A stretch of 64,000 bases of DNA from Bacteroidota bacterium (lineage in GTDB: Bacteria > Bacteroidota > Bacteroidia > Bacteroidales > UBA12481): positions 70,058-134,057 of the forward strand of contig JABHCC010000032.1 in the NCBI GenBank assembly GCA_018669475.1, given 5' to 3'. This document shows positions 15,781 to 63,430 of the stretch, piece by piece (positions within the stretch are counted from its first letter, which is position 1; every line of letters starts with the position of its first letter). A program made the translations under genes and the position numbers. Below the pieces are notes generated by a model. That model was not told the origin of the DNA, searched no databases, and saw only the letters and a program-made list of their open reading frames with translations.

Positions 15781-15950
15781 GACCAAAGACTTAAGACTTA
15801 AGACTTAAATTAGTCTGAAGGAAAAAGGAGGAAGTTTTAATATATAAACCCCGAACTTTGAACTTCGGACCCCGGACTTTGGACCCCGGACCCCGGACTT
15901 TGGACCCCGGACCCCGGACTTTGGCTAATGGTCCTTGGTCCATTAGCCAA
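15781..15950. repeat. Heptad arrays and hairpin between ftsE and the class V aminotransferase
   Basis: Two arrays of seven-base words fill most of this gap. At 15781-15808 there is GACCAAA followed by three GACTTAA. At 15853-15943, thirteen words run in exact phase, mainly GGACCCC and GGACTTT, then GGCTAAT, GGTCCTT and GGTCCAT. The last part folds into a perfect 11-bp hairpin, TTGGCTAATGG (15921-15931) with CCATTAGCCAA (15940-15950), which overlaps the stop codon of the aminotransferase. There is no T-run beside it, so it is not a standard terminator. Confidence 0.85.
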
Positions 15951-29586: not shown

Positions 29587-29740
29587 TTTTCAGTATCACA
29601 CTTGCCCCTATATTTGTGGTGTTACTACACAAACAGTGATGTAATAATAAGTCTTTGCCTGATCCGTTCAGGATCATTCATAGCTTAGGTTTTAGGTTAG
29701 GTAAAAAATCCGGATTTTCGAATCCGGATTTTTTTTAATT
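29587..29740 (+). ncRNA. Candidate pheT leader or small RNA between a promoter and a terminator
   Basis: TTTT (29587-29590), an 18-base spacer and TATATTTG (29609-29616) form a near-consensus promoter. About 90 bases later there is a very strong terminator (29703-29736). In between, TGATCC and GGATCA can form a small hairpin around 29660-29675. No tRNA or known RNA family is recognisable, and no leader peptide rich in Phe is seen. Either this is a small RNA of about 115 bases or it is an attenuator ahead of pheT, which begins 127 bases after the terminator. Transcription has not been shown. Confidence 0.45.
29703..29736 (+). terminator. Strong intrinsic terminator upstream of pheT
   Basis: AAAAAATCCGGATT (29703-29716) pairs perfectly with AATCCGGATTTTTT (29721-29734) around a TTCG tetraloop, a 14-bp stem with a terminal T-run on the plus strand. 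No annotated plus-strand gene precedes it, since the upstream peptidase gene is on the minus strand. Confidence 0.85.
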
Positions 29741-29761: not shown

Positions 29762-29861
29762 GATGACCAAGCATGACAAAAGGAAAAATACTTTAACACA
29801 CACGCGGATGATTGTTTTTGTTGTGCGAGCTCCATCCGACAAATAAAATAAAATATAAACG
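29762..29861 (+). repeat. 100-base start-codon element, copy at pheT
   Basis: The unit runs from GATGACC to the base before GATGAA, and the final CGGATGAA carries the pheT ATG at 29863. GCATGACAAAA (29771-29781) can pair with TTTTGTTGTGC (29816-29826) over 11 bp including two G-U pairs. CATCCG (29833-29838) can pair with CGGATG at the start codon (29860-29865) or with the identical CGGATG at 29805-29810. Near-identical units lie at 46132-46231 (minus) and 62472-62670. Confidence 0.9.
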
Positions 29862-29862
29862 G

Positions 29863-32310
29863 ATGAACATTTCATATAATTGGCTGAAAAATTACGTCGA
29901 TTTCAATCTTACACCTGAGGAGTTATCAGCAATTTTGACAGATACCGGATTAGAAGTTGAAGGATTAGAATCATACCAGTCGATAAAAGGAGGCCTTGAA
30001 GGCCTGATTATTGGCGAAGTAGTCGAATGTCAGCCGCACCCAAATGCAGACAAACTTAGCATTACAAAAGTTGATGTTGGGCAAAATGAGTTGCTGCCAA
30101 TAGTATGTGGAGCACCCAATGTTGCTGCCGGACAGAAAGTTATTGTCGCCCCGGTTGGCACTACCCTGTACATGGGAACTGACGCACTTAAGATAAAGAA
30201 AACTAAAATCCGGGGAGAGATATCCCAGGGAATGATTTGTGCAGAAGATGAGATTGGCATTGGAGACGATCATGAAGGAATTATTGAGATAGATACTGAT
30301 ATTCCTGCTGGTCAGGCCGCGAGCACTGTAATTCCGGTAGAAAATGATACGGTGATTGAAATTGGATTAACCCCTAACAGAATTGATGGCGCTTCCCATA
30401 TTGGAACCGCTCGTGATGTAGTGGCTTTCCTGAACCTGGATGAATCTAAAGTAAATCTGCAAATTCCTGATGTTAGTTCTTTCTCTGTTGATAATCACGA
30501 ACTGGAAATTCCTGTTGAGATTGAAGACCAGTCTGCTTGTATAAGATATAGTGGAGTCAGCCTTACCGGACTTACAGTTGAGGAATCTCCTGACTGGCTT
30601 AAAAACAGGCTCAAAGCCATCGGGTTGAAGCCAATTAACAATGTAGTTGACATTACTAATTTTGTTTTGCATGAAACAGGTCAACCGCTGCATGCTTTTG
30701 ATGCCAGCAAAATATCTGGCAAGAAGATTATTGTAAAAACCCTGCCGGATAAAACACAATTTACAAGCTTGGATGAGGAAAACAGGGAGTTGAGCAATCA
30801 GGATCTAATGATTTGCAGTGAAAATGAAGGTATGTGTATAGCCGGAGTATTTGGTGGAATTGATTCTGGTGTCACCGAAACCACTACAGAGATATTTATC
30901 GAGTCGGCCTGTTTCAATCCTGTACAGGTTCGTAAAACAGCTAAGAGGCATGGATTGAATACTGATTCATCATTCAGATTCGAGCGTGGAACTGATCCTA
31001 ATGGTACAATATATGCATTGAAACGAGCTGCCATTTTAATCAGAGATCTTGCAGGCGGCACAATCTCATCCAATATTGCTGATGTTTATCCGGAGGAGAT
31101 CAAACCTTATCCCGTAAAATTTAGTTGGGCCAATCTTGACAGGCTGGTTGGTGTTCAAATACCACATGATACCGTTTTACAGATTCTTGAACTGCTTGAC
31201 ATTTCAGTAGTTCACAGAACAAAAGACTGGCTGAATTTAGCAGTAGCCACTTATCGGGTTGATGTGAAACGTGAAGCAGATGTTATTGAAGAAATACTAC
31301 GGATATATGGATACAATAATGTCGGGCTGAGTGATCAGGTACATTCAACATTGTCATATGCTCCAAATCCTGATCCTGAGCTTCTTGAAAATAAAGTTGC
31401 TGAGCAACTGACTGCCTTGGGATTCAATGAAATGATGGCCAATTCCCTGACCAAATCATCATATTACAATGATAATGAGGGTGTGCCTGACAAAGACCTG
31501 ATCAAATTACTCAATCCCCTGAGTTCTGATTTGAATGCTATGCGTAAGAACCTGGCATACGGTGGACTGGAGACAATATCCCTTAACATTAAACACAGAA
31601 GAACTGATCTTCGATTTTATGAATTTGGGAATATTTATCAGGCCAATCCGGATGGCAACCGTTTTTCCCCTTCCGGATACTTACAAAACCGACGTCTGGC
31701 TATCTACCTGACTGGTAAGAAAAGTCCGGAGAATTGGTCAGCCAGTCAGGAACAAGCTGGCTTCTATACTATTAAAGGTTATGTAATGCAGGTCTTAGCA
31801 CGTCTGGGTATTCCTGAATCAGACCTGGAAATAAATTCAGGCTCAAATGGAATTCTTTCAGAAGGACTTCATGTCGCTTACAGAAACAAGACATTGGCCA
31901 GCTTCGGAAAAATAAATTCTGCGAGTCTTGAGACTTTTCACATAGAACAAGATGTTTATTATGCTGATTTTGACTGGGATCTATTGTTAAAATTTCAGTC
32001 TGGAATTATCGAATATAAAGAAGTTCCTAAATATCCGGAGGTCAGAAGAGACCTGGCCTTAGTCCTTGACAAATCTGTTGAATTTACATCAATCCGGAAT
32101 CTTGCCTTTCATGTTGAAAGAAAATTACTGAAATCAGTGAATCTGTTTGATGTATTTGAGAGTGAGAAACTCGGTCAGGGATTGAAATCTTATGCTGTAA
32201 GTTTTATTTTGCAGGATGAGAGAAAAACTCTTACCGATAAGCAGATTGATAAAATCATGAAAAGCCTGCTAATAGCATTCGAGCAAAAACTTGGAGCCAA
32301 GCTTCGTTAG
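29863..32310 (+). CDS. pheT: Phenylalanyl-tRNA synthetase beta subunit
   Basis: PheT is the tRNA-binding and editing subunit of the heterotetrameric enzyme that charges tRNA-Phe. From MNISYNWLKNYVDF the protein has 815 residues, the normal length. It shows the tRNA-binding EMAP-like domain (about 40-150, with CQPHPNADKLSITKV), B3/B4 editing (INNVVDITNFV, QPLHAFDASK), B5, the catalytic-like domain (RFYEFGNIY) and the C-terminal anticodon-binding FDX-ACB domain. The frame is open for 17 more codons upstream, but these lie within the repeated element and are not conserved protein sequence. pheS is not in the window. The 3' end overlaps the convergent HAD gene by four bases. Confidence 0.97.
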   Translation: MNISYNWLKNYVDFNLTPEELSAILTDTGLEVEGLESYQSIKGGLEGLIIGEVVECQPHPNADKLSITKVDVGQNELLPIVCGAPNVAAGQKVIVAPVGTTLYMGTDALKIKKTKIRGEISQGMICAEDEIGIGDDHEGIIEIDTDIPAGQAASTVIPVENDTVIEIGLTPNRIDGASHIGTARDVVAFLNLDESKVNLQIPDVSSFSVDNHELEIPVEIEDQSACIRYSGVSLTGLTVEESPDWLKNRLKAIGLKPINNVVDITNFVLHETGQPLHAFDASKISGKKIIVKTLPDKTQFTSLDEENRELSNQDLMICSENEGMCIAGVFGGIDSGVTETTTEIFIESACFNPVQVRKTAKRHGLNTDSSFRFERGTDPNGTIYALKRAAILIRDLAGGTISSNIADVYPEEIKPYPVKFSWANLDRLVGVQIPHDTVLQILELLDISVVHRTKDWLNLAVATYRVDVKREADVIEEILRIYGYNNVGLSDQVHSTLSYAPNPDPELLENKVAEQLTALGFNEMMANSLTKSSYYNDNEGVPDKDLIKLLNPLSSDLNAMRKNLAYGGLETISLNIKHRRTDLRFYEFGNIYQANPDGNRFSPSGYLQNRRLAIYLTGKKSPENWSASQEQAGFYTIKGYVMQVLARLGIPESDLEINSGSNGILSEGLHVAYRNKTLASFGKINSASLETFHIEQDVYYADFDWDLLLKFQSGIIEYKEVPKYPEVRRDLALVLDKSVEFTSIRNLAFHVERKLLKSVNLFDVFESEKLGQGLKSYAVSFILQDERKTLTDKQIDKIMKSLLIAFEQKLGAKLR

Positions 32311-35860: not shown

Positions 35861-35930
35861 TTGGTTGTTAGTCCTTGGTCGTTGGTCCATGGTCGTTAGT
35901 CCTTGGTCGTTAGTCCTTAGTCGTTAGATC
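35861..35930. repeat. Heptad array of ten words upstream of tryptophanase
   Basis: Ten seven-base words in exact phase, TTGGTTG, TTAGTCC, TTGGTCG, TTGGTCC, ATGGTCG and so on (mostly TTRGTCS). Read on the other strand these are GACCAA/GACTAA words, the same family as at 1389-1430 and 15781-15943 but inverted. The array ends 44 bases before the tnaA ATG. Confidence 0.85.
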
Positions 35931-35974
35931 TCTGTTTTCGCAGGGATGAAGTTTTCCTTTATCATTATATAAAT

Positions 35975-45599: not shown

Positions 45600-46130
45600 T
45601 TATGATTGAGCATTAAACTCTTTGCTAAGTTGGCTCACCCAATTGGTAATTCGCTGGGAACTTTTGTTCGCTTCAAAATCTTCATCAATTGGTAAACCAA
45701 GAAAATAATCACCTCTTTGAGCTTTTGAGTGCTCAAATATATATTCATCCACAGGTGTAAAACCAATTAGTTTAGCTCCGGCAGCTTCCAGCTTTTCTGC
45801 AAGTACACCAATATCATCAACAAAATGATGGGCATAACTAACATGATCACCCAAACCAAAAATCGCACAGACTGCCCCCTTTATCTGTAGTTGGGGCAAT
45901 TGAGCCATAAAAAGATCCCAATGATTTTCTTTAGGTGCATCACGCCATGTATGAGTCCCTAGAGTTGGGCCACCAAAGATTATGCAATCAAATGCCCCAA
46001 AATCAACTTGAGCACCATCTTGCACTGGAACAATAGTGACATTAGAATCACTAAAACTATCAGCCACCTGCTTGGTGACTTTTTCGGTATTACCACCGAG
46101 CGGGCCGTAAATAATTGCTATTTTATTCAT
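45600..46130 (-). CDS. Flavodoxin
   Basis: The 176-residue FMN protein starts at ATG 46130 (MNKIAIIYGPLGGNTEKVTK). The phosphate loop GPLGGNTEKV is a variant of the usual T/SxTGNT. Loop segments FGGPTLGTHTW and GLGDHVSYAHHFVD bracket the flavin ring, as in long-chain flavodoxins, and the length fits. It carries low-potential electrons, probably from the nearby 2-oxoacid oxidoreductase. The frame extends 17 codons upstream, but that part is the repeated element. The start codon itself lies in the terminal CGGATGAA of the element. Confidence 0.93.
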   Translation of the reverse strand: MNKIAIIYGPLGGNTEKVTKQVADSFSDSNVTIVPVQDGAQVDFGAFDCIIFGGPTLGTHTWRDAPKENHWDLFMAQLPQLQIKGAVCAIFGLGDHVSYAHHFVDDIGVLAEKLEAAGAKLIGFTPVDEYIFEHSKAQRGDYFLGLPIDEDFEANKSSQRITNWVSQLSKEFNAQS

Positions 46131-46131
46131 C

Positions 46132-46231
46132 CGTGTATATTTATTTTTATTTGCCGGATGGAGCTCGCACAACAAAAACAATCATCCGCGTGTGTGTTAA
46201 AAAATTTTCTTTTTGTCATGCTCGGTTCATC
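46132..46231 (-). repeat. 100-base start-codon element, copy at flavodoxin
   Basis: Read on the minus strand this unit is nearly identical to the pheT copy, including GCATGACAAAA, the internal CGGATG, TTTTGTTGTGC, CATCCG and the final CGGATGAA, which provides the flavodoxin ATG at 46130. It is preceded by a diverged copy at 46232-46344. Confidence 0.9.
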
Positions 46232-46344
46232 CTTAATTATTTAAATTATTTATTCCCTTTTGAATTGGGAAAGCTCACATCACTAAAATAATCATCGCCG
46301 CTTGTATCAAGATGGCTTTGTTTTTTGTCATGCTCTTTTATTCG
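46232..46344 (-). repeat. Diverged second copy of the start-codon element
   Basis: On the minus strand this 113-base stretch keeps GAGCATGACAAAA, GATGATTATTTT, GTGATGTGAGCT and the terminal AAGGATGAA, in the same order and with similar spacing as the intact unit, but most other positions differ. The CATCCG/CGGATG pair is replaced by another inverted pair, TTCCC/GGGAA. Confidence 0.75.
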
Positions 46345-55353: not shown

Positions 55354-56310
55354 ATGAGACGTCTTTGTACTATCGTTTTGACACTGGCATTGATTATTTC
55401 GTGTACGCCAAAGCCCAATTCATCAGAGAGCATAAGAATTCTGAGTCTAAAAGGGCCAAGTGCTATCAGTCTTGTTCATATGATGAATGAAACTGACAGT
55501 GTTGATGGTAAAGCAATCCGGTACCAACTTTTAAATGAGCCCAACCAGGCCAGGGCCAGACTATTGCGCGGAGAAGCTGAATTTGCCTTTCTGCCTATGA
55601 ACCTGGCTGCAAACCTGTACAACAAGGGGCTACCATACCAACTGCTTATGATTCCGGTATGGGGAAGTCTCTATTTGTGTGGTGATGGAGAAGCATTTTC
55701 AGATCTCCATGATTTGAAAGGCAAAAGAGTACATATGATGGCCAGGGGACTAAATCCTGACATTATTTTCAGGTACCTGCTGGAGCAGGCTGGTTTGCTT
55801 CCTGACAAAGATGTGATTCTTGATTATTCTTTCCCAAGTCACATAGACCTGGCCAATGCAGTTAAAGCCGGATTGGCCGATCTGGCTATTTTATCTGAGC
55901 CTCAGCTGAGTATGGCAATTCAAGGGAATAGTTCAATTTCGCGTTTAATGGATCTGAATAAGAAATGGCTTAAGGAAACCGGATCGGAGATGGCTCAAAC
56001 TGCACTGCTTGTTCATGCTGATTTCGCTAAAAACAATCCAGTACTTACTGATCAGCTAATCACTTTATTCTCAGAATCAGGCATAAAAGCCACGTCAGAT
56101 ATAAAATTGACAGCCAAATTGATTGTGAAAAATGATATCCTGCCGGATGAAAAAGTCGCTGTTATGGCAATCCCTCATTGTGGAATTCATCCTATGAGTT
56201 ACAGTGCAACAAGGGAAGCGCTTAATAAATACCTGAAAGTTTTTTATGCTTTTGATCCCGAAACTATTGGTGGGAAAATTCCCGATGAAAGTTTTTTTTA
56301 CTCGAAATAA
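55354..56310 (+). CDS. ABC transporter substrate-binding lipoprotein, NMT1/SsuA-like
   Basis: The 318-residue protein has a lipoprotein signal (LALIISC, Cys near residue 17) and the two-lobe fold of NMT1/THI5/SsuA-type binding proteins, with HDLKGKRVHMMARG, FRYLLEQAGLLPDKDV and AGLADLAILSEPQ. Family members bind aliphatic sulfonates, thiamine precursors, nitrate, taurine and similar; the ligand here is unknown. Its natural partners, the permease and ATPase, lie 6.4 kb downstream because a SusC/SusD module sits in between. Its last 26 bases overlap the start of a decayed permease copy. Confidence 0.92.
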   Translation: MRRLCTIVLTLALIISCTPKPNSSESIRILSLKGPSAISLVHMMNETDSVDGKAIRYQLLNEPNQARARLLRGEAEFAFLPMNLAANLYNKGLPYQLLMIPVWGSLYLCGDGEAFSDLHDLKGKRVHMMARGLNPDIIFRYLLEQAGLLPDKDVILDYSFPSHIDLANAVKAGLADLAILSEPQLSMAIQGNSSISRLMDLNKKWLKETGSEMAQTALLVHADFAKNNPVLTDQLITLFSESGIKATSDIKLTAKLIVKNDILPDEKVAVMAIPHCGIHPMSYSATREALNKYLKVFYAFDPETIGGKIPDESFFYSK

Positions 56311-56425
56311 TTCTATCACAACTTTAACAACCCTCATCAGGCTAGTGATATCGGTTATTCTTGCTCCAAGGCACGAATTCATCAGCTATACTGCAGGTAT
56401 TGGCTTGACTACCAGAATTCCAATA
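56285..56425 (+). pseudogene. Remnant of the ABC permease 5' end
   Basis: From the ATG at 56285 the frame reads MKVFFTRNNSITTLTTLI, closely matching MKALFTRNNSITALSILI of the intact permease at 62672. About 50 codons of DNA similarity continue to around 56425, including a shared GAATTCATCAGCTATACTG. There is one extra base between shared GTGATAT and GAATTCATCAGC, which shifts the frame, and the rest of the gene is missing. The ATG lies inside the end of the binding-protein gene, showing the original four-base-plus overlap of the two genes. This copy has no 100-base element. Confidence 0.8.
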
Positions 56426-62220: not shown

Positions 62221-62410
62221 ATTTAATTTAGTTATTTCTGGTATTGATTTCTGAGGTGAAAGATATTCATAAATTCACACAATACTCCATCCTTTGAATT
62301 CTGAACATCAATGAGTGAAACCATCTGAGTAATGCAATCCGGAGTAATAATTCTATTTCTCATTTAATTGATATGAATGAGAGAATGCTACAGAAATCAA
62401 ACTGAGAGCT

Positions 62411-62507
62411 TAAAAAATACCTGAAAGTTTTTTATACTTTTGATCCCGAAACTATTGGTGGCAAAATCCCCGATGAACCGAGCATGACAAAAGGAAAAAT
62501 ATTTTAA
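62411..62507 (+). pseudogene. Remnant of the substrate-binding protein 3' end
   Basis: The frame reads LKKYLKVFYTFDPETIGGKI then PDEPSMTKGKIF and stop, against LNKYLKVFYAFDPETIGGKI then PDESFFYSK at the end of the intact binding-protein gene. Over 63 bases there are about three differences. The similarity begins near 62411, with only weak traces further upstream. At GATGAA (62472-62477) the gene is interrupted by the 100-base element, which supplies the last residues and the TAA at 62505-62507. Confidence 0.8.
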
Positions 62508-62570
62508 CACACACGCGATGATTATTTTTGTTATGCGAGCTGCATCCGACAATTAAAATAAATATAAACG
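62472..62570 (+). repeat. 100-base start-codon element, first tandem unit before the permease
   Basis: The unit runs from GATGAACCGAGCATGAC to the base before the next GATGAA. It has GCATGACAAAA and TTTTGTTATGC (one more A-U pair than other copies) and CATCCG, but the internal mimic reads CGATG, with one G missing. Tandem with the unit at 62571-62670. Confidence 0.9.
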
Positions 62571-62670
62571 GATGAACCGAGCATGACAAAAGGAAAAATA
62601 TTTTAACACACACGCGGATGATTATTTTTGTTGTGCGAGCTCTATCCGACAATTAAAATAAATATAAACG
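62571..62670 (+). repeat. 100-base start-codon element, second tandem unit before the permease
   Basis: This unit has GCATGACAAAA (62581-62591), internal CGGATG (62615-62620), TTTTGTTGTGC (62626-62636) and TATCCG (62643-62648). It ends in CGGATGAA, whose ATG at 62672 is the permease start. Confidence 0.9.
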
Positions 62671-62671
62671 G

Positions 62672-63430
62672 ATGAAAGCTTTATTTACTCGAAATAATTC
62701 TATTACAGCTTTATCAATCCTCATTATATTAGTGATATGGGAATTGCTTGCGCGGAGCATGAATTCATCAGCTATACTGCCAGGCCCCTGGTTGAGCTTC
62801 AGAACATTTTTAAGTTTCTGGTATGATGCCAGTTTTTATCAGGCATTGGGTTCAACCTTGATTCGTGGTCTGATGGGTTTTGCATTGGCTTTCCTTGTGA
62901 GTCTTTTGGTGGGTATACCCTCAGGTTTATCACCTGCCATTGAAGCATTTTTTGCTCCTATATTGGTAATTATAAGATCTACTCCGGTAATATCCATTAT
63001 TCTGCTGGCCCTGATCTGGTTTAAAGTTGAGCATGTTCCTGTTTTCATCAGTTTCCTGACTATGTTTCCTATTCTAACAACCAATCTCACCGAGGGTATC
63101 AAAGCTGTCGACAAAGGAATCATCACAATGGCCCAGGTGTATAATGTGAAAAACATCAGGATTATCAGGGAAATATATTTACCAGGCCTGCTTCCCTTTA
63201 TATTCAGCGGACTTATCACTGCGGTAGGCTTTGGGTGGAGAGCGATAATAATTGGTGAAGTACTCAGTCAACCAAGATTTGGTATAGGTACCGGCATGCA
63301 AAAAGCCCAAAGCTATTTATTAGTTGCTGACCTCATTGCCTGGACTTTGGTTGCTGTACTGATAGGATTTATCTTTGAGATCCTGATTAAAAAAGCCCTG
63401 AAACCACATACTCATTGGTACACAACATGA
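62672..63430 (+). CDS. ABC transporter permease, NitT/TauT/SsuC-like
   Basis: The 252-residue protein has six predicted membrane segments and the cytoplasmic EAA loop around KNIRIIREIYLPGLLPFIFSG that docks with the ATPase. It belongs to the SsuC/TauC/NrtB group. It begins with MKALFTRNNSI at the ATG supplied by the 100-base element. The ATPase gene overlaps its stop by four bases (ATGA). Its partner binding protein is encoded at 55354-56310; the operon is split by the SusC/SusD module. Confidence 0.93.
   Translation: MKALFTRNNSITALSILIILVIWELLARSMNSSAILPGPWLSFRTFLSFWYDASFYQALGSTLIRGLMGFALAFLVSLLVGIPSGLSPAIEAFFAPILVIIRSTPVISIILLALIWFKVEHVPVFISFLTMFPILTTNLTEGIKAVDKGIITMAQVYNVKNIRIIREIYLPGLLPFIFSGLITAVGFGWRAIIIGEVLSQPRFGIGTGMQKAQSYLLVADLIAWTLVAVLIGFIFEILIKKALKPHTHWYTT

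Follow-up and report, generated by a model that had tools for sequence, protein, structure and literature searches.

A start-codon-preserving hairpin element ahead of pheT looks like a widespread genomic hitchhiker of Bacteroidota

The pheT locus and its leader

The window, which is the whole 64,000-nucleotide stretch of DNA analysed here, comes from a Bacteroidales-related genome (assembly GCA_018669475.1, contig JABHCC010000032.1, positions 70,058 to 134,057). It carries a gene that we take to be pheT, as the sequence-only reading of this DNA named it. The start codon of this gene forms part of the right end of a short repeated element with a hairpin (stem 1), a putative guide and an A/T-rich linker (Table 1). 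An inverted repeat, AATCCGGATTTTCGAATCCGGATTTTTTTT, which looks terminator-like by eye, lies directly ahead of the element at 29708-29736. Arrays of seven-letter repeats (types GGACCCC/GGACTTT and GGTCGTTAGTCCT) occur between genes elsewhere in the window, at 1389-1426, 15847-15940 and 35862-35931.

The coordinates and letters given in the sequence-only reading are correct. The two arms of stem 1 form 11 pairs, two of them G-U, and CATCCG at 29833-29838 is complementary to CGGATG both over the start codon (29860-29865) and inside the hairpin (29805-29810), so that both of the competing pairings that it had described are present in the letters. The pattern CATCCG-N10-30-CGGATG occurs three times in the window against 0.03 expected from shuffles, and CATCCG-N8-34-CGGATG occurs 52 times in the 5.56-Mb genome, a few of these sites being plainly unrelated (e.g., L014), against none for the reversed control. 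This arrangement is far above chance in the window and in the genome. The predicted RNA fold of the pheT leader contains stem 1 and a hairpin over the start codon (-18.9 kcal/mol, z -2.5), and pairing with the internal CGGATG is absent from it. Conserved tiny open reading frames inside the element were also considered; they are possible in the pheT copy, but by eye the frames are broken in other subfamilies.

Table 1. Features of the window that bear on the hairpin element
Feature	Position	Strand	Description
Element copy ahead of pheT	29763..29867	+	Left ATGA.., stem 1, guide, A/T-rich linker, right ATGAA
Left end of this copy	29763..29768	+	Reads ATGACC (most copies ATGAACC); one of two ATGAA-type boundaries
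Stem 1, left arm	29771..29781	+	GCATGACAAAA
Internal CGGATG	29805..29810	+	Supposed start-codon mimic; not conserved in other subfamilies
Stem 1, right arm	29816..29826	+	TTTTGTTGTGC
Proposed guide	29831..29838	+	TCCATCCG; can pair with the right end and, in the family, also with the left ATGAA
Right end	29860..29867	+	CGGATGAA; ATG at 29863-29865 is the start codon of the downstream gene
Downstream gene, called pheT	29863..32310	+	Relatives up to 58% identity; element in 0 of 80
Second copy	46126..46230	-	Right ATG opens a 176-codon frame on the minus strand
Divergent copy	46226..46342	-	Different second hairpin; tandem, just upstream of the copy at 46126..46230
Paralogous empty site	56285..56289	+	ATGAA with matching flanks, without element
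First of two tandem copies	62473..62576	+	
Second tandem copy	62572..62676	+	Right ATG starts a 252-aa frame at 62672-63430

Copies in the genome

With the pheT copy as query, BLAST found 43 places in its own genome, and GAGCATGACAAAA with at most one mismatch occurs at 121 sites. These sites were listed and fetched in part, so the copy number is a lower bound. From the fetched loci, 78 full-length copies were extracted; two proved to be mis-extracted short forms and were dropped, leaving at least 76 full-length copies of a repeat of about 105 nt. In these 76 copies, conservation begins sharply at the left ATGAA and stops sharply after the right one, where the invariance is partly by construction since extraction demanded a right-hand ATGAA. 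Changed right ends are found in L035, L096 and L098. Tandem copies, which are insertions next to the element's own kind, also have ATGAA boundaries. The 71 of 76 copies shorter than 112 nt were aligned. Stem 1 is complete in 54 of them. All six pairs of the start-codon helix are present in 45 and all six mimic pairs in 44, which contradicts the earlier statement that every intact copy keeps the layout. The variants TTATGC and TATCCG quoted in its favour were found in the copies at 62473-62676, and a tandem copy of the window has lost a base of the mimic (CGCGATG).

Ten short forms of about 45 nt were found in the same genome (L076, L082, L083, L084, L086, L090, L092, L097, L102 and L103). Neither the guide nor the right arm of stem 1 is present in them, but they still stand at gene starts: the internal CGGATGA supplies the start codon of open frames spanning 126 to 329 codons, some of which are truncated where the fetched DNA stops. 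Such forms resemble products of a deletion from the internal to the terminal CGGATGA repeat. In L089, L093 and L099, the second hairpin is, by eye, clear of the start codon. Small palindromes such as TCCCGATTTTAATCGGGA or CCCGATAGCTATCGGGA lie within these three copies and within L047 and L300, as though members of another small repeat family had inserted there.

Evidence for insertion

Regions 56217-56394 and 62405-62780 of the window are paralogous. The first reads CCCGATGAAAG, and the second reads CCCGATGAA, the two tandem copies and GATGAAAG. The search for element-free sites in seven related genomes used four copies, selected for splitting overlaps, with their flanks joined. The L033 junction aligned without the element in G003, G004 and G009; in G010 it was matched in one search and in two pieces in another. 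The L058 junction is element-free, with small insertions in it, in the same-genus genome G001. For L044 and L027, no alignment spanning the junction was found in the seven genomes.

Among 140 elements whose left end includes ATGA, six have an upstream frame, 155-499 codons long, whose stop codon is exactly the TGA of that ATGA, and the downstream gene begins at the right ATG; in these cases a stop/start overlap has been split, leaving one copy of the overlap for each gene. One of the other two frames had no such open frame above 81 codons and the other had two above 150 (427 and 163). The paralogous empty site, the element-free sites in relatives and the six split overlaps show that the repeat is an insertion. 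In genome G261, seven copies of 106 nt are identical and one more differs by a single change; the identity of the seven indicates recent movement there. No BLAST match to the pheT copy was found in plasmids and phages. Two patterns searched in IMG/VR gave one match, a heavily deleted derivative lying between two genes on a viral contig (L391 3010-2971, contig IMGVR_UViG_3300010430_006947), in which the stop of one gene overlaps the left ATGAA and TTCCATCTG..CAGATGAA then starts the next frame.

Distribution and architecture

A covariance model built from 25 diverse copies has matches in 81 of 295 genomes of the order (62 of 183 genera) and, in a phylum-wide sample, in 14 of 296 genomes, of which two belong to another class; both counts include the genome of the window. 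In genome G223, there are 40 matches at E <=0.1, a tandem triple among them. A wider set of 81 matches at 71 loci in 31 genomes shares one architecture: ATGAA, a long imperfect hairpin whose loop is often ACACACA-like, TTCCAT or CTCCAT followed by a variable triplet, an A/T-rich linker, a triplet complementary to the variable one, and ATGAA. The element measures about 95-140 nt and contains no gene. Some subfamilies (L121, L126, L129, L134 and L284-L302) have an extended loop and reach 129-141 nt; one of these is the tandem triple at G223:C1:824925-825322. No match to the element was found in Rfam, and no published description was found in the literature searched, with most subscription papers lying outside that search. 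A start-codon-preserving mobile hairpin that is spread across Bacteroidota looks undescribed.

Pairing with the two ends

Across the 81 matches, the three variable letters of the start-codon helix CATNNN/NNNATG covary. CATCTG/CAGATG accounts for 35 matches, CATATG/CATATG for 14, CATCCG/CGGATG for 7, CATACG/CGTATG and CATGTG/CACATG for 2 each and CATCAA/TTGATG for 1, the rest being other or imperfect pairs. In stem 1 and the start helix together, 107 cells are changed on both sides, compared with 22.8 +/- 4.0 in shuffles. Sliding the partner lowers pairing from 94.7% to 13-48%, in an alignment that is fitted to the model and so favours this result. Alignment A2, fitted to the model's structure, includes one antisense artefact (L106 938-1043).

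The sequence-only reading had named significant covariation in both alternative helices as the support to look for, and only the start helix is conserved by compensatory change. In the 25-member alignment, 93.3% of start-helix cells are paired, and the mimic, over the same rows, has 75.8% paired with four cells changed on both sides, a number reached by 27 of 500 shuffles. Its paired percentage and covariation score beat most shuffles (1 and 4 of 500 reach them), as 25-member sets of related copies can. In the wider set, without two rows that have no usable guide, an internal six-pair partner exists in 9 of 79 elements, and in 8 of the 70 whose guide is not CATCCG.

The competitor for the CAT of the guide is instead the left end of the element. 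Dropping duplicates and elements that do not both start and end in ATGAA left 67 distinct elements of the 81, and in 59 of these 67 the arms of stem 1 align out to the first base, the left ATG; for example, ATGAAACCTCC pairs with GGAGGTTCCAT. Judged from the letters, one short segment can thus pair with both ends.

A candidate mechanism and its rivals

Passages in the accounts of IS608 (PMC5934647; also PMC8266576) describe insertion 3' of a fixed tetranucleotide that remains in the flank, and cleavage sites that pair with guides lying 5' of the hairpin feet. In the element, ATGAA (TTCAT on the antisense strand) is present at both boundaries, so a fixed short target is kept at the flank. On the antisense strand, as far as sequence goes, a guide complementary to the cleavage sites lies 5' of the foot of a subterminal hairpin. 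Departures from complementarity at the first five positions are A-C on the top strand in 54 cases and G-T in one (67 distinct elements), and the 54 are G-T wobbles on the antisense strand. From these departures we infer IS608-type logic for a non-autonomous element of about 95-140 nt, which on balance is probably moved by IS200/IS605-type single-strand recombination on the antisense strand. The antisense order would be cleavage site TTCAT, linker, guide ATGGAA, hairpin and cleavage site TTTCAT. A single guide would pair with both ends of the element, and the start-codon helix would be a helix of guide and cleavage site that is kept for transposition and has no regulatory role.

Some observations run counter to the antisense reading. 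The stem-1 wobbles of the own-genome copies fit the sense strand in 134 cells against 10, mostly at two inherited positions, and new stem-1 changes in the 71 copies favour it by 10 to 3. The antisense DNA folds weakly in four of six copies tried (z about -0.8 to -0.9). No replication-strand bias was found in G223, where 15 of 31 copies are co-directional and 16 head-on against 68:44 for genes (p = 0.23; origin inferred from 20 skew samples). The same mobile element may therefore use other machinery, either a transposase with a fixed ATGAA duplication or an RNA intermediate, and its helices would then serve end recognition or the RNA. The sense-strand lean of the wobbles, the better folding of the sense RNA than of the antisense DNA, the even strand distribution in G223 and the lack of a linked Y1 gene all speak for this rival. 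A constant five-letter target duplication is, however, unusual for a DDE transposase, the ends of the element are not inverted repeats of each other, and a segment complementary to both ends fits guide logic, so other machinery is considered rather unlikely.

The search for an enzyme covered several candidates. Ninety Y1_Tnp-type loci, some overlapping and about 334 kb in all, contained four elements at E <=0.01, none abutting the gene, where about three are expected by chance at the density of G223 (40 in 4.8 Mb). The elements nearest to a Y1 match lie about 2.8 kb (L172), 0.9 kb (L349), 0.9 kb (L352, weak) and 0.7 kb (L388, where the Y1 match is a 12.5-bit fragment) away. Y1_Tnp is commoner in element-bearing genomes (72 of 81 vs 132 of 214, p = 2e-6, uncorrected for genome size and kinship), and at E 0.001 nine genomes that carry the element give no match to it. 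Y1_Tnp genes were rejected as the partner because their presence is associated with the element but its copies do not abut them. A long form carrying a transposase was not found in G223: one right-half pattern occurs there 24 times, each time at a model match. Genome G216 carries a 557-bp IS200-like element in several near-identical copies (L311-L314) with the right end GATTCATT; it was rejected as a source since its ends differ from those of the hairpin element.

REP-type Y1 genes of about 190 aa were present in 7 of 21 element-bearing genomes searched, with weak matches fetched in part. By motif and length, their products would belong to a Bacteroidetes subclass, 2.6, which PMC6006769 describes as flanked by atypical structures. 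No hairpin element was found beside ten such genes in seven genomes, and these genes were rejected as the partner because other hairpins, or none, were seen there. Those at L371, L372, L373, L374 and L375 lie amid hairpin repeats of their own, such as GCTGGTTCGAACTTGTAGCTCGAACCAGC, and form a separate REP system of these genomes.

Comparison with known systems

The element resembles IS200/IS605 members (IS608, ISDra2) and their non-autonomous derivatives in its fixed short flanking target, its subterminal hairpin and, in the antisense reading, a guide 5' of the hairpin foot that pairs with the cleavage sites, as far as passages of PMC5934647 and PMC8266576 describe them. It differs in having one hairpin and one guide for both ends and no internal gene, in a guide helix of about 6-8 pairs where those members have a tetranucleotide network, and in showing no lagging-strand bias (G223) and no linked transposase. 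REP sequences with TnpA-REP/RAYT, as portrayed in parts of PMC6006769 and PMC3733652, are similar in their many dispersed hairpins, the short segment at one foot and the lack of a gene inside. In contrast to REP sequences, the element has TTCCAT/CTCCAT in place of a GTAG/CGTC tag, is 95-140 nt long rather than 20-40, has exact ATGAA boundaries and does not flank a RAYT gene (10 REP-type genes, 7 genomes).

MITEs of DDE transposons are also short, gene-free and dispersed and have duplicated target letters. Unlike them, the element lacks terminal inverted repeats, its ends reading ATGAAACGAG.. and ..AAACAGATGAA by eye, and its duplication is constant in sequence. Leader RNAs that sequester the start codon share the covarying hairpin over that codon, whereas the element is mobile, is untied to orthologous genes and has no Rfam match.

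A broader proposal is put forward tentatively, as a possibility that falls short of being probable. The copies would form a Bacteroidota-wide family of self-guided single-stranded elements, each reading both of its ends with one hairpin and one guide. Their target would in effect be the start codon, including ATGA stop/start overlaps, and they would spread new 5' leaders through operons without breaking reading frames, moved by a so far unrecognised transposase.

Position at gene starts

The right ATG opens a reading frame in 60 of the 76 copies, stands before another copy in 6 and does neither in 10, which makes it a gene start in 60 of 70 non-tandem copies. Since the gene-side ATGAA stays intact, an insertion at a start codon keeps the reading frame and swaps only the 5' leader. 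The ATGAA background of the window has 15 start and 20 noncoding sites (15/35), with genes called crudely as ATG frames of at least 100 aa, and the 60/70 is an enrichment over it (p = 9e-6). In G223, 24 of the 40 matches were classified, partly by eye, as 14 at genes, 8 at neither and 2 before another copy; 14/22 is enriched over 39 start and 179 noncoding ATGAA sites (39/218; 20 samples of 10 kb; p = 1e-5). The freshest copies, in G261, stand at genes in 4 of 7 non-tandem cases, which differs weakly from 60/70 (p = 0.09).

This enrichment could reflect an exapted shared leader, in which start-codon copies act as a common 5' region that tunes the translation of many genes. The complete stem 1 in 54 of 71 copies and the conserved A-rich stretch that the element supplies ahead of the ATG are also in line with such a role. 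However, the start helix is complete in only 45 of the 71 without sense-strand bias, the freshest copies are at genes in 4 of 7 non-tandem cases, and survival bias accounts for the start-codon enrichment equally well; a shared leader is improbable. The excess at start codons would arise mainly because insertions at these positions are tolerated and persist, with real targeting perhaps added.

The proposed switch at pheT

Among 80 kept pheT loci of other species, from which records near the genome of the window may be left out, the element occurs in none, and it is therefore not a conserved pheT leader. Its start helix shows no sign of copy-by-copy selection, since only those 45 of the 71 own-genome copies have it complete and its changes there include seven G-U against eight A-C, with no G-U excess. 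Because the leader RNA is predicted to hide the start codon of pheT, a mild damping of translation is possible.

The sequence-only reading had proposed a translational switch, in which the leader RNA would shift between a fold that hides the start codon and one where the internal CGGATG releases it; although the start helix covaries and the letters permit both pairings in the pheT copy, as in 44 of 71 copies here, the switch is very improbable, because the internal partner exists in 9 of 79 elements and is missing from the predicted fold, the element is absent from the 80 other pheT loci, ten short copies stand at gene starts without a guide, and the second hairpin of L089, L093 and L099 lies, by eye, off the start codon. 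The mimic was rejected after tests on 25, 71 and 79 elements. The observation behind this proposal is real and non-random, and its pairing over the start codon stands, but the mimic and the gene-regulatory role are not supported, and the switch reading is mostly wrong.

Biological meaning

The element does not look like a gene switch but like a hitchhiker that is widespread in genomes. Compact operons are places where most mobile elements do harm. By entering at ATGAA, this one keeps the start codon functional, and it can part the two genes of a stop/start overlap without damage to either, which makes it fit for a gene-dense genome. It replaces the leaders of many genes, and sites with and without it in sister species would be natural experiments on the evolution of leaders and operons. 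If the guide reading is true, the target could be predicted from the element's own letters.
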